Origin: Candidatus Neomarinimicrobiota bacterium
Lineage (GTDB): Bacteria; Fidelibacterota; Marinisomatia; Marinisomatales; S15-B10
Length of the DNA: 64,000 nt
NCBI GenBank assembly: GCA_012964825.1
Contig: DTTI01000028.1
Coordinates: forward strand, 1 to 64,000
Direction: 5' to 3'
In this document: in pieces, positions 46,975 through 54,080 of the stretch
Numbering within the stretch: the first letter of the stretch is position 1
How the letters are laid out: every line of letters begins with the position of its first letter
Notes under the pieces: model-generated
Seen by the model: the letters and a program-made list of their open reading frames with translations, nothing else
The model's database searches: none
Told to the model about the DNA's origin: nothing
Made by a program: the position numbers and the translations under genes

Positions 46975-48234
46975 TTACCTCAAAAAGTCTATGGCTTTTT
47001 CTAATGATGCTAACAGACGATCCACATCTTCAAAATCATTATAGAGGTAAAAACTGGCTCTTGCAGTTGCCGCTATGCCCAATTTTTCCATAACGGGCTG
47101 GGCACAGTGATGGCCCGCCCGGATGGCTACACCATCCCTGTCGAGTATTTGAGCAAGGTCGTGAGGGTGAACGCCTTCTAAGTTGAAAGTAATAACCCCG
47201 CCCCGTTCAGGAGGGGAGCCGTAGATGGTTACTTCCTCAATCTCGTTAAGTTTCTTCAGTGCATAATCTGTAATAATCTTTTCATGCTCATGAATTGTAT
47301 CCATGCCGATTTCAGAAAGAACATCCACCGCAGCACCTAGTCCAATAGCTTGGGCGATGTTGGGTGTCCCTGCCTCGAATTTCCATGGCACATCGTTCCA
47401 TGTAGATTCTTCCAGAGTTACTGTCTGAATCATTTCACCTCCGCTAAGAAACGGCTCCATCTGTTCAAGCACATCTGATTTTCCATAAAGAACACCCACA
47501 CCGGTAGGCCCCAGCATTTTATGACCTGAGAATGCGAGAAAATCACAGTCGAGTGAAGATACGTCCACAGAGAAGTGGGGCACACTCTGTGCCGCGTCGA
47601 TAAGTATTAAAGCGCCTACACTTTTTGCCAGCGAGATTATCCTTTCCACAGGGTTTACGGTGCCAAAGACGTTGGACTGATGGATGACCGATACAATTTT
47701 GGTTCTTTCAGTGAAATAAGATTCAATATTCTCCAGTGTTCCATCCGATCCAAAAGGGATATATTTCAAGGTAGCGCCAGTTTCACGGGCAGCCAGTTGC
47801 CACGGCACGAGGTTGCTGTGGTGTTCCATCTCCGTTATTAGAATTTCGTCACCTTCCCCAAGATTGTGTCTTGCCCAAGCATAGGCTACTAGGTTGATAG
47901 CTTCCGTGGTACCCCGTGTGAAGACTACCGACCGGGACTCTTCAGCCCCTATAAAGCGAGACACTCGTTCTCTTGCCGATTCGTACGCTTCCGTGGCCTT
48001 TTCACCAATAGCATAAATGGCTCTGTGAACGTTGGCGTTGTAATCTGAGTAGTACTCTGCTACTGCCTCTACAACTTGTCTCGGTGTCTGGGAAGTGGCA
48101 GCACTGTCGAGATAGTAGAAAGGTTCATAGGCCAACCTGTTATGAAAAATAGGAAAGTCACTCCTGATCTTGGCTACATCCAGCGGCAGGGATCGTACTG
48201 CTGACGGTTCTACTGTAGCACTCTCAGCTATCAT
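46975..48234 (-). CDS. sufS: Cysteine desulfurase SufS
   Basis: Releases sulfur from cysteine for Fe-S assembly. The 419-residue PLP enzyme has the PLP lysine in FSGHKMLGPTGVGVLYG, phosphate-binding FTRGTTEAINLVAYAW, EMEHHSNLVPWQLAA, and the mobile catalytic cysteine in RAGHHCAQPVM, the short-loop arrangement of the SufS class. It starts 1 bp after the SufT-like gene stop, in the order sufBCDUTS. SufU, encoded nearby, is the expected sulfur acceptor since no sufE is seen. Confidence 0.96.
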   Translation of the reverse strand: MIAESATVEPSAVRSLPLDVAKIRSDFPIFHNRLAYEPFYYLDSAATSQTPRQVVEAVAEYYSDYNANVHRAIYAIGEKATEAYESARERVSRFIGAEESRSVVFTRGTTEAINLVAYAWARHNLGEGDEILITEMEHHSNLVPWQLAARETGATLKYIPFGSDGTLENIESYFTERTKIVSVIHQSNVFGTVNPVERIISLAKSVGALILIDAAQSVPHFSVDVSSLDCDFLAFSGHKMLGPTGVGVLYGKSDVLEQMEPFLSGGEMIQTVTLEESTWNDVPWKFEAGTPNIAQAIGLGAAVDVLSEIGMDTIHEHEKIITDYALKKLNEIEEVTIYGSPPERGGVITFNLEGVHPHDLAQILDRDGVAIRAGHHCAQPVMEKLGIAATARASFYLYNDFEDVDRLLASLEKAIDFLR

Positions 48235-48235
48235 A

Positions 48236-48787
48236 TTAGTACATTCCCAGTTCCAGCCGGGCAGCTTCTGAGATCATATCCTTCGTCCAGGGTGGCTCCC
48301 AGACAAGTTCTATATTCACATCTCTTACGCCAGTGACACCAAGGACTTTTGCTTTCATCTCATCCACCATCATGGGTCCCATACCGCAGCCCGGTGCCGT
48401 CAGGGTCATTTTAATCTCCACATTGGTGCCGCCTTCTACAGCATCTGTGAGTTTACAGGAGTAGATGAGACCCAGGTCTACCATATTTATGGGAATTTCC
48501 GGGTCGTAACAGGTTTTGAGTACTTCCCAGATTGCTCCTTCGCTGGCGGTTCCTGTTATTTTTTTCTCTTCCGAAGCATCTTCTGTCACCTTTTTGCCTA
48601 TGGTGTCGGCATCTTTTCCCTCAATCCTGAAAAGGGAGCCTCGGGCCGTTACCGTATAACTACCGCCCAGGGCCTGGGTGATACGGACCTTATCCCCTTT
48701 TTTCAGGGTAAAAGCATCACCAAAAGGAATAAGGGTGGCATCACAGTCCCGGGTGAGGGTAATGAGTTCATCACTGAATGTGTTCAT
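48236..48787 (-). CDS. sufT: SufT-type Fe-S assembly protein with N-terminal extension
   Basis: A 183-residue protein. Residues about 1-75 form the beta-rich extension typical of long SufT proteins (ATLIPFGDAFTLKKGDKVRITQALGGSYTVTARGSLFRIEG). The DUF59 domain follows (VLKTCYDPEIPINMVDLGLIYSCKL, then TAPGCGMGPMMVDEMKAKV with the conserved cysteine, then VWEPPWTKDM). It aids Fe-S maturation. It overlaps sufU by 4 bp and precedes sufS by 1 bp. The shorter MIP18 paralogue is at 46161. Confidence 0.9.
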   Translation of the reverse strand: MNTFSDELITLTRDCDATLIPFGDAFTLKKGDKVRITQALGGSYTVTARGSLFRIEGKDADTIGKKVTEDASEEKKITGTASEGAIWEVLKTCYDPEIPINMVDLGLIYSCKLTDAVEGGTNVEIKMTLTAPGCGMGPMMVDEMKAKVLGVTGVRDVNIELVWEPPWTKDMISEAARLELGMY

Positions 48788-49239
48788 TCTGTTTTCGCGA
48801 CCTTATCTGCCCCGGTAAGACAGTTGTTTAAAGTGTGCCAAGCCAGTGTTGCGCATTTTACTCGGGCAGGATATTTATGAACACCAGCCATGACGGTTAG
48901 CTTTCCCAAGTCTTCTGAGCCCGTTTCCCCGGTGGTGACTAGCTGGTGGAAAGAGTCAAACAGAGATTCAATTTCAGTGGTTGATTTGCCTTTAACTACA
49001 GTGGTCATAATTGAGGAGGAGGCTTTTGATATGGCGCACCCTGAACCGTCAAAGCGGATATCTTTCACTCTGTCTCCTTCCACTTCCAGGTGCAACTTAA
49101 GTTTATCCCCGCAAAGGGGGTTGTAACCGTCACCGGAGTGTGTGGGAGACTCCAACTGGCCAAAGTTCTGGGGGTTCTGGTTGTGATCAAGGATCACTTC
49201 CTGGTAAAGTTCACGTAGGTCATCCACCGGTAACTCCAT
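48784..49239 (-). CDS. sufU: Fe-S scaffold/sulfur-transfer protein SufU
   Basis: A 151-residue zinc-dependent sulfurtransferase of the SufU type. Zinc/sulfur ligands are Cys43-x-Asp45 (PLCGD), Cys68 (SGCAISKASSS) and Cys129 (ARVKCATLAWHTL). The insertion before the last cysteine (GKLTVMAGVHKYPARVKC) distinguishes SufU from IscU. ATG 49239 gives the usual N-terminus (MELPVDDLRELYQEVILDHNQNPQN); it overlaps sufD by 20 bp. A start at 49287 is possible but would overlap by 68 bp. It accepts sulfur from SufS. Confidence 0.9.
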   Translation of the reverse strand: MELPVDDLRELYQEVILDHNQNPQNFGQLESPTHSGDGYNPLCGDKLKLHLEVEGDRVKDIRFDGSGCAISKASSSIMTTVVKGKSTTEIESLFDSFHQLVTTGETGSEDLGKLTVMAGVHKYPARVKCATLAWHTLNNCLTGADKVAKTE

Positions 49240-50491
49240 TGAGCCATGATTCAAGGAGACCCCGGGCGTACTCTTGAGCTTCTTCATTATTTATATCATC
49301 TACCACTTCATTGGCAAAGCCGTTAATGAGCAGTGCCTTGGCGGAAAGAACGTCAAGCCCGCGGGACCTGAGATAAAAGAGGGCGTCTTCGCTGATCTGG
49401 CCCGTGGTAGAACCATGGGTACACCTCACATCATCGGCATAAATTTCCAGCTGAGGGTTGGAATTCATGAGAGCATTGTCGCTCAACAGCAAATTGTTAT
49501 TGGTCTGGTTAGCGTCAATCTTCTGAGCATCTTGGCGAACTACGGCGCGGCCGTTAAAAACACCCGTAGATTTGTCGGCAAGAATGTATTTAAAGAGCAT
49601 GCGGCTGGTGACATGTTCTGAGGTATGATCCATAATAATGTTGTGATCCACATGCTGGGACTCTTTGGAAAGGCAAAGACCATTGAGGGTAACATCGGCC
49701 CCTTTCCCGGAAAGAACAACGTTTACATCATGCCTGTGGAGGGAGGAGCCCAAGGATATATAAGAGCCGTGAATATTACTGTCCGCCGGCACCTGATAGA
49801 AGGTAGCGGAAAGGTGGGAGGCTGAAGGGGCTTCGTTTTGGATGCGAAGATGATGCAGATGACTGTTGTTACCGGTCCTCATAATGGTTAGGGCGTTGTT
49901 CCAATATGAGACGGTACCATTCCCGCGGTATTCTTCAATGAAGGTGGCCTGAGTGTTTTCCGCCACATCCACTACGAGTCTTGGGTGATTCATAATGGGC
50001 TCTGAAAGTTTTGTGGTGATATAGAGCAATCTCACGGCGGAGGAACTGTCAAATTCTTCAGAAAAGTGAATATGAAGACCACTGTTCATCATGGCAGTAT
50101 TCAGTATAGCAAAGGGGTTCGCGCCTGCATCGTAGCCGTTGGTCACAAGTTTGGCATCCTTATTGTAACTGTCCAGTAGTGTATTGAGGGTGAGGCCCGG
50201 CGGGATGGTTGAGAGGTCAGGCTGGTAGTGGCCATTCACAAATAGAAGTGTAGGGAGAGAAAGACTGTCTTTCCCCTCATCACCGCGTTCAGGTAAGTCA
50301 GCCTCTGTGGAGAGGCGAAAAGCGTTTTTCTCCACCATCGTAGTATTGGTGAAGCGATAAACTTCCCAGCTCTGCCTCGGAAAACCGATTTCTTTAAAAT
50401 GGTTAAATGCTCCTTTTCTCAGTTCCTGAAGAGAGTGAGGTTCATGATCAGCGGGGGAAAGGGTTGAAAACTGTTTTTCCAGGTGTTTCAT
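49220..50491 (-). CDS. sufD: Fe-S cluster assembly protein SufD
   Basis: A 423-residue component of the SufBCD scaffold. After a variable N-terminal half it shows the SufBD beta-helix core: VVLSGKGADVTLNGLCLSKESQHVDHNIIMDHTSEHVTSRMLFKYILADKSTGVFNGRAVVRQDAQKIDANQTNNNLLLS and LEIYADDVRCTHGSTTGQISEDALFYLRSRG, the latter with the conserved V-x-C/K-x-x-H segment. SufD pairs with SufB and SufC. It starts 3 bp after the sufC stop. Confidence 0.95.
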   Translation of the reverse strand: MKHLEKQFSTLSPADHEPHSLQELRKGAFNHFKEIGFPRQSWEVYRFTNTTMVEKNAFRLSTEADLPERGDEGKDSLSLPTLLFVNGHYQPDLSTIPPGLTLNTLLDSYNKDAKLVTNGYDAGANPFAILNTAMMNSGLHIHFSEEFDSSSAVRLLYITTKLSEPIMNHPRLVVDVAENTQATFIEEYRGNGTVSYWNNALTIMRTGNNSHLHHLRIQNEAPSASHLSATFYQVPADSNIHGSYISLGSSLHRHDVNVVLSGKGADVTLNGLCLSKESQHVDHNIIMDHTSEHVTSRMLFKYILADKSTGVFNGRAVVRQDAQKIDANQTNNNLLLSDNALMNSNPQLEIYADDVRCTHGSTTGQISEDALFYLRSRGLDVLSAKALLINGFANEVVDDINNEEAQEYARGLLESWLNGVTGG

Positions 50492-50494
50492 GTT

Positions 50495-51247
50495 TTAGGC
50501 GACCACGGTTTCTTCCAGCCAGCCGTAACCTTTTTCTTCCAGTTCGTGAGCCAGGTTCTTACCACCGGAGCGGATAATACGGCCGTCCATGAGAACGTGA
50601 ATCTTGTCCGGATCCATGTATTGCAAAATTCTTTGGTAGTGAGTGATAACAACTACAGCCCGGTCCTCGCGCCGGAACTTGTTTACGCCGTCAGCCACTA
50701 TCCTTATAGCATCAATGTCCAGTCCCGAATCGGTCTCGTCTAGAACAGCTAGGGTGGGGTCCAGGACGAGCATCTGAAGGATTTCGTTCCGCTTTTTTTC
50801 ACCGCCGGAAAAACCGTCATTCACAGCACGCTTCAGATAGCTTTCATCCATCTTCACCTGTGCCAGTTTCTCCTTAATAAAGCTCAGGAAATCGACAGCA
50901 TCCATCTCAGGTTCACCCCGGTGCTTCCGGATAGCATTTACCGCCGCCTTCATGAAATAAGCGAGATTGACGCCAGGGATCACTGCGGGATACTGGTATG
51001 ACATGAAAACACCTTCCAGGGCCCTTTCTTCAACATCCATCTCTAGCAGATTATTTCCGTTGTAGAGAATTTCACCATCTAAAACTTCATAGATTTTTTG
51101 ACCGGCGATAACGTGGGCCAGCGTGCTCTTTCCGGAGCCGTTAGGTCCCATGATGGCGTGGAGTTCGCCGGTGTTTACTACCAGGTCGATACCTTTCAAG
51201 ATAGGTTTATCCTCTACAGCGACGTGGAGGTTCTTTATCTCGAGCAT
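50495..51247 (-). CDS. sufC: Fe-S cluster assembly ATPase SufC
   Basis: A 250-residue ABC-type ATPase that drives conformational change in the SufBCD scaffold. Walker A is GPNGSGKST, the signature is FSGGEKKRNEIL (SufC-type), Walker B with its glutamate is LAVLDETDSGLD, and the H-loop is VVVITHYQRIL. The sequence FMSYQYPAVIPGV is the SufC Q-loop region. It lies 65 bp after sufB and is cotranscribed with sufD. Confidence 0.97.
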   Translation of the reverse strand: MLEIKNLHVAVEDKPILKGIDLVVNTGELHAIMGPNGSGKSTLAHVIAGQKIYEVLDGEILYNGNNLLEMDVEERALEGVFMSYQYPAVIPGVNLAYFMKAAVNAIRKHRGEPEMDAVDFLSFIKEKLAQVKMDESYLKRAVNDGFSGGEKKRNEILQMLVLDPTLAVLDETDSGLDIDAIRIVADGVNKFRREDRAVVVITHYQRILQYMDPDKIHVLMDGRIIRSGGKNLAHELEEKGYGWLEETVVA

Positions 51248-51312
51248 AAAATATTTTCCAAAATTTTCTTTCAGTTAAATCATTTTCATCAGGGGAACGG
51301 GATGATCGATGG

Positions 51313-52797
51313 TTAGCCGACGCTGCCCTCCAAACTCACTTCCAACAGCTTCTGTGCTTCCACCGCAAACTCCATGGGGAGCTCTCTGAACACTTCCTTG
51401 CAAAAACCATTTACGATCATAGAGACAGCATTTTCTGTGGAGATGCCACGCTGGTTGCAGTAGTAGATCTGATCTTCTCCGATAGCGGAAGTGGATGCTT
51501 CGTGCTCCATCTGTGCTGAAGGATTCCGTACATCAATATAAGGAAATGTGTGGGCACCGCACTTGTCGCCGATAAGAAGTGAGTCACACTGGGAGTAGTT
51601 CCGGGCGTTATCGGCACCCTTCATGATCTTCACGGCGCCGCGGTAGGTATTCTGCCCCTTCCCGGCGGAGATACCTTTGGTGATAATTGTACTCTTAGTA
51701 TTCTTCCCAATGTGGGTCATCTTTGTTCCGGTGTCGGCCTGCTGAAAGTTGTTGGTGAGGGCCACCGAGTAGAATTCGCCGACCGTTTTATCCCCTTTGA
51801 GAATCACGCTGGGATATTTCCAGGTGATGGCCGAACCAGTCTCCACCTGCGTCCAAGAGATCTTGGAGTTGTCCTCACGGCAGATGCCCCGTTTGGTGAC
51901 GAAGTTGTAGATGCCGCCTTTGCCCGTTTTTGGATCACCGGGATACCAGTTCTGAACGGTGGCGTATTTAATTGTAGCATCCTTGTGGGCGATCAGTTCC
52001 ACCACGGCTGCGTGAAGCTGGTTCTCATCGCGCATGGGTGCGGTGCACCCCTCAAGGTAACTCACATAGCTGCCCTCATCGGCGATGATAAGGGTCCGTT
52101 CGAACTGGCCTGTGTTGGCTGCGTTGATACGGAAGTAAGTGGATAGCTCCATGGGACACCTAACGCCCTTAGGGACGTAGACAAAACTGCCGTCGCTGAA
52201 AACAGCTGAGTTGAGTGTGGCGAAGAAATTATCGGTATAGGGCACCACCGAGCCGAGATACTTTTTGACCAAGTTAGGATGTTCATGGACCGCTTCGGAG
52301 AATGGGCAGAAAATCACCCCCGCTTTTTCCAGTTCCTTCTTGAAAGTGGTTGCTACGGAGACCGAATCAAAGACCGCATCTACAGCTACACCGGTAAGCA
52401 TCTTCTGTTCTTCAAGAGGAATGCCCAACTTTTTGTAGGTTTCCAGCAGCTCCGGGTCCACCTCGTCCAGGCTTTTCGGGCCGTCTTCTTGTGATTTTGG
52501 CGCCGCGTAGTAGCTGATGGCCTGGTAATCAATTTCATTATACTTAACCATGGACCAGTCCGGCTCTTCCATCTTGAGCCACTGCCTATACGCTTTCAGC
52601 CGCCACTTAAGCAGCCAGTCCGGTTCATTTTTCTTCAGTGAGATTGTTTTAACTGTCTCTTCATCGAGACCGGGGGGAATAGTTTCCTGATCGATATCAG
52701 TGACGAAGCCGTACTCATACTCTTGCGAGAGCCGGCTCTCGATAGTCTGCATCTCTTCGCTCAATACTTTCTCAACTGATCCGTTTTTTGTCATCAC
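51313..52797 (-). CDS. sufB: Fe-S cluster assembly scaffold SufB
   Basis: The 494-residue cluster-building subunit. It contains EYGFVTDID near the N-terminus, [91 protein letters not shown] (with a conserved cysteine), and the C-terminal core [22 protein letters not shown]...[20 protein letters not shown]. It is the first gene of the SUF operon; an IscR-like palindrome and a promoter precede it. Confidence 0.97.
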
Positions 52798-52817
52798 TTT
52801 ACCTTTTTGCTGGAGTG

Positions 52818-52869
52818 AAATTACTGGCTATTCCTCTCTCCAGTCAAGAAAAATCCGACTAAAATAGTC
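52818..52869 (-). promoter_or_regulatory. sufB promoter with IscR type-1-like palindrome
   Basis: On the minus strand TTGACT (52847-52842) and TAATTT (52823-52818) are spaced 18 bp apart, ending about 20 bp before the sufB ATG. TCTTGACTGG, which spans this -35, is repeated before rrf2. Ten bp upstream lies GACTATTTTAGTC (52857-52869), a perfect inverted repeat whose form GACT-R-WWW-Y-AGTC equals the core of the IscR type-1 motif. Regulation by the Rrf2 protein encoded at 46519 is inference. Confidence 0.5.
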
Positions 52870-52925
52870 TTATTTATTCCGGTATTCAAGTAGTAAAGGT
52901 CTTTTTTAAGGGAGAATCGATCCTT

Positions 52926-53966
52926 TTATAGGAGAGAGATACGTTTTTCCCCGCCGGAGGGACAGAAGATGCCGATCTTGCAGGCGGCGTAGGGTGATTT
53001 GGAATTGAATTCTGAGATGAAAGATGAGGCGTTCTCTTCAGGCATGGCAATAAGCAGTCCGCCAGACGTTTGTGCGTCGGCGGCCATGAGTTGCTCATGT
53101 TCCTGCAAACTTTCTCTAAACTCAATTTGTTGAGACGCATGGTCGAGGTTTCTCTCCGTCCCCTTGGGGACCACACCTTTTTCGGCAAGAGCCGCCGTGC
53201 CGTCTATGAACGGAAGCTGGTCAAATTTGACTTTAGCCGACACATCACTGACTTCACAGATCTCCAGAAGGTGACCGAGGAGACCAAATCCTGTCACATC
53301 GGTGGCGGCAGAGGCCCCGTATTTGAGCATCAGTTCAGCAGCCAAGGAGTTGAGAGTGGTCATGAGAGCTGTGGCTTCCTGTATCAAACTCTCCGCAGCT
53401 TCACCGTGTTTGATAGCTGTAGTGATAATGCCCGTCCCTAACGGTTTCGTCAGGACAATTGCATCACCGGGCTTGGCGCTGTTGTTCCTGACAATTTTGT
53501 TAGCAGAAGCTTCTCCTGTCACCACAAGCCCGTACTTCGGTTCTTTGTCATCAATGCTGTGGCCTCCGAGAATGGAGATGCCCGCCTCTTTTGCTTTGGA
53601 TGCGCCCCCTTTAAGAATTTCCCCCAACACTTCCATGGGAAGGTCATCTATTGGAAAAGCGACAATGTTCAGAGCAAAAAGCGGTGTGGCGCCCATGGCG
53701 TAGATATCGGAGAGGGAATTGGCGGCGGCAATCTGACCAAAAGAAAAGGGGTCATCGACGATGGGGGTGAAGAAATCCAGGGTTTGGACTAGGGCTCTAT
53801 CTCCATCAATGCGCACCACTGCCGCGTCGTCAGACCCGGAAAAGTCGACCACGACATTTTTGTCTTCAACAGGAGGCAGCTGGCTCAGAACCTGAGCCAG
53901 GTCTTTTGGACTGAGCTTACAGGCTCAGCCTGCGCCGTGTGAAAACTGGGTAAGTCGTTTGGTCAT
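52926..53966 (-). CDS. selD: Selenide, water dikinase SelD, selenocysteine-containing
   Basis: Makes selenophosphate from selenide and ATP. Simple ORF calling gives only 308 residues starting after the active site. Reading through the in-frame TGA at 53927-53925 restores the normal N-terminus: MTKRLTQFSHGAG, then UGA, then ACKLSPKDLAQVLSQLP. SelD proteins have Cys or Sec exactly there (G-A-G-C/U-x-C-K). The full protein has 346 residues with Sec at position 14, followed by FSGSDDAAVVRIDGD, LSDIYAMGATPLFALN and AATDVTGFGLLGHL. ATG 53966 or 53978 may start it. A SECIS-like hairpin follows the UGA (53880-53900). The sel machinery must exist elsewhere. Confidence 0.93.
53880..53927 (-). promoter_or_regulatory. 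UGA selenocysteine codon and bacterial SECIS-like hairpin in selD
   Basis: The UGA is at 53927-53925 (minus strand). Twenty-four bases after it, CTGGCTCAG pairs with CTGAGCCAG in a perfect 9-bp stem with loop GTT (53900-53880). The loop begins with G followed by T, as bacterial SECIS loops usually do, and lies in the distance range known for them. A second small hairpin, TGAGC/GCTCA, covers the UGA itself. Confidence 0.8.
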
Positions 53967-54080
53967 TGTCTCTGCCATAGGTGAGGAATTTAGCCGGGTG
54001 ATGGCAGAGAGAGGAGAGGAAAATGTTATTGGCTAGCAACAAAACTCAACAGCATTTTGGATAATTACACGTATAGTAGC

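Follow-up and report, generated by a model that had tools for sequence, protein, structure and literature searches.

A minus-strand gene of a Neomarinimicrobiota (SAR406) genome almost certainly encodes selenide, water dikinase (SelD) as a selenoprotein, with selenocysteine (Sec) inserted at an in-frame UGA by way of a SECIS hairpin, a reading drawn from sequence comparison. The UGA, the hairpin after it, the conservation of both and the genes of the Sec machinery are all present. The source genome spans 2.21 Mb in 84 contigs and is 97.6% complete; the window referred to below is the whole 64,000-nucleotide stretch that was analysed, and its relevant features are collected in Table 1. SelD is well known as a selenoprotein (PMC1794560; PMC1242214) and constitutes the second largest prokaryotic selenoprotein family (PMC13188914), so the Neomarinimicrobiota protein belongs to a known family and is a type of thing already described. 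The analysis corrects the annotation of this enzyme, which standard gene calling would cut short at the cost of its catalytic residue, and it documents a complete Sec-decoding system in a Neomarinimicrobiota genome where at least seven genes contain an in-frame UGA.

Table 1. Features of the selD region, in coordinates of the window
Feature	Position	Strand	Remark
selD, selenide, water dikinase	52926..53978	(-)	one UGA, predicted to be read through as Sec
In-frame UGA, predicted to be read as selenocysteine	53925..53927	(-)	aligned with E. coli SelD Cys17
GUC/GAC element between UGA and main hairpin	53901..53911	(-)	GGUC...GACC in most relatives
bSECIS upper hairpin, 9-bp stem, GUU loop	53880..53900	(-)	33 nt from UGA to loop
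SAM-dependent methyltransferase frame, 244 codons	54081-54815	(-)	between selD and KDPG aldolase

The in-frame UGA of selD

Read on the minus strand, the beginning of the gene runs ...ATG GCA GAG ACA ATG ACC AAA CGA CTT ACC CAG TTT TCA CAC GGC GCA GGC TGA GCC TGT AAG CTC AGT CCA..., and read-through of the UGA joins MTKRLTQFSHGAG-U-ACKLSPKDLAQVL... in a frame with no further stop before the TAA at 52926. If the UGA is taken as a stop, the longest ordinary frame begins at GTG 53852 and encodes 308 aa. A sequence-only reading of this DNA had proposed that a start ahead of the TGA restores an N-terminal active site, GAG-U-ACK, which a standard caller would truncate away, and both points hold: the UGA aligns on a catalytic Cys of E. 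coli SelD, and the ordinary frame lacks the catalytic residue. The same reading had placed the start at the ATG at 53966-53964, which is indeed in frame and 39 nt ahead of the TGA (53927-53925), but a second in-frame ATG lies four codons upstream at 53978. The upstream ATG is probably the true start, because most of the close relatives shown begin at the matching codon, about 17 residues ahead of Sec (for example MASEEAKRL..., MSEKQKKRL... and MARTMTKRL...). Sec would then probably be residue 18 of a 350-aa protein, or residue 14 if translation starts at ATG 53966.

The assignment to SelD is supported by a score of 410.5 bits against NCBIfam TIGR00476 (selD), for which the curated equivalog cut-off is 125 bits, over profile positions 1-310 of 311. 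The best match among solved structures is E. coli SelD (PDB 3u0o, E = 3.2e-75), which belongs to the same family over its full length and has Cys17 where Sec is predicted here. In the alignment with SelD proteins that the earlier reading had suggested, GAG-U-ACK lies on GAG-C17-GCK20, with the UGA on Cys17 and the Lys on Lys20, and the Aquifex SelD structure likewise has Cys at this position. The protein therefore shows both marks of the family, a full-length profile match and an N-terminal Cys/Sec followed by the conserved Lys. Three other SelD sequences (L101, L105, L118) keep the UGA yet have Gly or Ser in place of the second Cys in the U-A-C motif; this Cys is therefore probably dispensable.

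Peptide patterns placed wholly outside the UGA site were run against 84,980 genomes and retrieved 80 SelD loci, from Neomarinimicrobiota, Nitrospinota, Nitrospirae, Actinobacteria, Chloroflexi, Gemmatimonadota and Firmicutes, among others. The TGA is found in all 79 fetched homologs that cover the site (the 80th locus begins after it), and homology extends across the UGA in each of them; the genuine downstream start in relatives against which the sequence-only reading had set its proposal did not turn up among them.

The hairpin after the UGA

Exactly 24 nt after the UGA begins a perfect 9-bp stem, CUGGCUCAG/CUGAGCCAG (53900-53892 / 53888-53880), closed by the loop GUU at 53891-53889, just as had been described from the letters of the sequence. 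Folded from the UGA, the RNA reaches -21.3 kcal/mol, versus -11.3 +/- 2.7 kcal/mol in dinucleotide shuffles (z = -3.8, 0/200 as good). The published bSECIS model (PMC13188914) specifies a stem of 4-16 bp, a loop of 3-9 nt with G in the first two loop positions, a distance of 16-37 nt from UGA to loop and an energy of -7.5 kcal/mol or lower. A SECIS check around the UGA, as had been suggested, finds that the selD hairpin fits every one of these constraints (9 bp, GUU, 33 nt, -14.2 kcal/mol). Counting both strands, 7 of the window's 2837 UGA triplets, the selD one among them, are followed by an equally stable, model-compliant hairpin, and none of 200 synonymous recodings of the window's own gene yielded a hairpin as good. 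A hairpin of bSECIS geometry occurs in all 74 SelD sequences tested; it is better than 95% of synonymous recodings in 53 of them and fails to beat synonymous shuffles at 5% in the other 21. In some relatives, another hairpin is the best of those that comply with the model.

The apical region is similar to that of the E. coli fdhF SECIS (GCAGGUCUGC in fdhF, CUCAGGUUCUGAG in this selD); more narrowly, the apical CAGGUUCUG of selD resembles CAGGUCUG of fdhF, whose sequence was confirmed in fdhF records. The fdhF SECIS has a bulged U. Compared with it, the selD stem is longer and unbroken, and a conserved GGUC/GACC element precedes the stem in most relatives.

Constraint on the RNA was measured as codon sharing wherever the amino acid is shared, across 75 distinct sequences, with the expectation taken from each gene's codon usage. 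Synonymous codon identity is near expectation at codons +1 to +4 and +16 to +21, and excess constraint appears only over the hairpin and the GGUC/GACC element just ahead of it. The observed versus expected identities are 0.74 vs 0.26 at +5 (GGT), 0.90 vs 0.58 at +8 (GAC), 0.33 vs 0.17 at +9 (Leu), 0.77 vs 0.50 at +11 (CAG), 0.46 vs 0.25 at +12 (Val), 0.65 vs 0.17 at +13 (Leu, CTG) and 0.56 vs 0.24 at +14. The main stem also displays compensatory changes, with 42 cells altered on both sides against 14 in shuffles; stem column pair 33-43, for example, occurs as CG in 20 cases, UA in 14 and GC in 11. Sliding the structure along the alignment abolishes the pairing. RNAalifold returned no consensus structure for 50 aligned sequences, probably because the outer base pairs and a few entire hairpins differ between sequences, and the structure was tested instead by pair counts, synonymous codon statistics and recodings.

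The GUC/GAC element is paired in 88% of cells with hardly any compensatory change, and its synonymous constraint falls at codons +5 and +8. It could possibly be a small helper hairpin or the lower part of the SECIS.

Selenocysteine decoding in the genome and its relatives

The sequence-only reading had expected selA, selB and a tRNA-Sec elsewhere in this genome, and had regarded a lack of selB or selC as evidence against itself. All three genes were found: selA (C58:35378-36724, 536.7 bits, cut-off 267.9) adjoins selB (C58:36748-38604, 353.3 bits, cut-off 242), and a tRNA-Sec lies on another contig (C18:45354-45445, 63.9 bits, gathering score 47), which ARAGORN also calls as tRNA-SeC with anticodon tca. 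The selenouridine synthase SelU, a possible second user of selenophosphate, had no match in the genome. Selenoprotein SelD of other bacteria likewise has Sec in the N-terminal selenium-binding loop, a UGA followed by a bSECIS, and a genome that also holds selA, selB and tRNA-Sec, and no functional difference from these proteins was seen.

Each of six additional loci (L137, L139, L145, L146, L147, L157) contains a single in-frame UGA, which falls at a redox motif. They comprise two BCP-type peroxiredoxins (TPGUT, on C69 and C84), two CMD/AhpD-like proteins (CHYU on C57 and CFYU on C69), a TlpA/redoxin-like protein (UTSC, C22) and a SelW-like protein (CSVU, C77). Together with selD this gives at least seven UGA genes, the six further ones being candidate selenoproteins from families all already known to include selenoproteins (PMC13188914 table; PMC1794560). 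None of the four PF00384 matches in the genome (formate dehydrogenase/molybdopterin proteins) has an in-frame UGA, nor does any member of its thioredoxin family.

In 46 of 61 related genomes a SelD with the TGA in this position is present, in a few cases as a fragment. Sec-SelD and SelB occur together in 41 genomes and are both missing from nine, while SelD stands alone in five and SelB in six (Fisher P = 3e-4, with relatedness not corrected). The genomes with one of the two presumably reflect gaps in incomplete assemblies. The nine genomes with neither gene (G023, G033, G039, G044, G047, G050, G053, G056, G059) are small, at 0.8-1.0 Mb, and belong to one genus. Three of the 61 also or only carry a longer SelD-like fusion without the UGA, in which the SelD-like domain sits in a frame of about 740 aa (G037:C252:5475-6497, G031:C50:17724-18713, G038:C193:2621-3631); in G031 and G037 it accompanies a separate Sec-SelD.

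A literature search by title and abstract found no paper treating Marinimicrobia/SAR406 SelD as a selenoprotein. A 2016 survey places three SAR406 single-cell genomes among 'orphan SelD' organisms and reads such cases as hinting at a new selenium trait (PMC5029168). Since Sec-SelD and SelB occur together across the lineage, these three cases may be incomplete genomes of Sec-decoders, and SAR406 genomes once classed as 'orphan SelD' merit re-examination. A wider proposal, which we advance tentatively and regard as doubtful in its entirety, is that selD has a two-part SECIS with a GGUC...GACC hairpin or signal under selection in this clade and some other phyla, and that the SAR406 'orphan SelD' organisms are Sec-decoders. 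If the two-part SECIS is real, the pre-hairpin GGUC...GACC would be a feature absent from the published bSECIS model, and the conserved codons between UGA and hairpin could refine SECIS models.

Alternative readings, decoding route and gene neighbourhood

The methyltransferase frame upstream of selD is intact save for two in-frame TGAs, at codons 17 and 101, each within the hexamer CGCTGA. In its closest relative (L125), which is 59% identical and free of stops, the two sites hold Gln and Trp, and the bSECIS-model test found no SECIS-like hairpin after either TGA. The frame was considered as a second selenoprotein and rejected because its UGAs align with Gln/Trp and lack a bSECIS-like hairpin; it is likely a recent pseudogene or a product of consensus errors. 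A search of viral contigs gave no match for the methyltransferase, and its plasmid relatives are distant.

These two unexplained UGAs are what lends some plausibility to a nonsense mutation or assembly error in a Cys gene as the source of the selD UGA. That reading is refuted by conservation, as the same UGA stands in 79 homologs and all close relatives, and a bSECIS-like hairpin follows the selD UGA but neither of the methyltransferase UGAs; we consider its probability negligible. Nor do we give any real weight to UGA being a general sense codon in this genome (e.g. Trp, code 4). One methyltransferase UGA does align with a Trp of a relative, yet many intact genes in the window end in TGA, the selD UGA occupies a Cys/Sec site, and the UGAs of the Prx, CMD, TlpA-like and SelW-like genes all fall at redox Cys/Sec positions, with paralogs that lack the UGA. 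It is also very improbable that SelD begins at GTG 53852, downstream of the UGA, with the upstream frame a chance occurrence or decayed remnant. Although a standard ORF caller yields exactly that frame, its product would be missing both the catalytic residue and the conserved Lys that follows, every relative, and E. coli SelD too, is homologous on both sides of the UGA, and the RNA-level constraint sits just past the UGA.

With selD read as a Sec-containing selenoprotein, a ribosome would initiate at ATG 53978 (or 53966) and arrive at the UGA at 53927. We infer from gene content and homology that SelB, with GTP and Sec-tRNA-Sec, would bind the downstream bSECIS hairpin with its GUU loop and deliver selenocysteine at the UGA in place of release-factor action. 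Sec would thereby be placed in the N-terminal selenium-binding loop, at the site of the catalytic Cys in other SelD proteins, and the enzyme would be expected to make selenophosphate, the selenium donor for SelA in making Sec-tRNA-Sec. Because SelA would draw on this selenophosphate, SelD would be needed for its own synthesis.

A point of difference from Sec-containing SelD of other bacteria is that selD here adjoins a SUF iron-sulfur cluster operon comprising sufB, sufC, sufD, sufU, sufT and sufS (window 46975-53978 with selD). This adjacency hints at the cysteine desulfurase SufS as a possible supplier of selenium. The proximity of selD and sufB is common to many Neomarinimicrobiota, with sufB downstream of selD (L014-L048).
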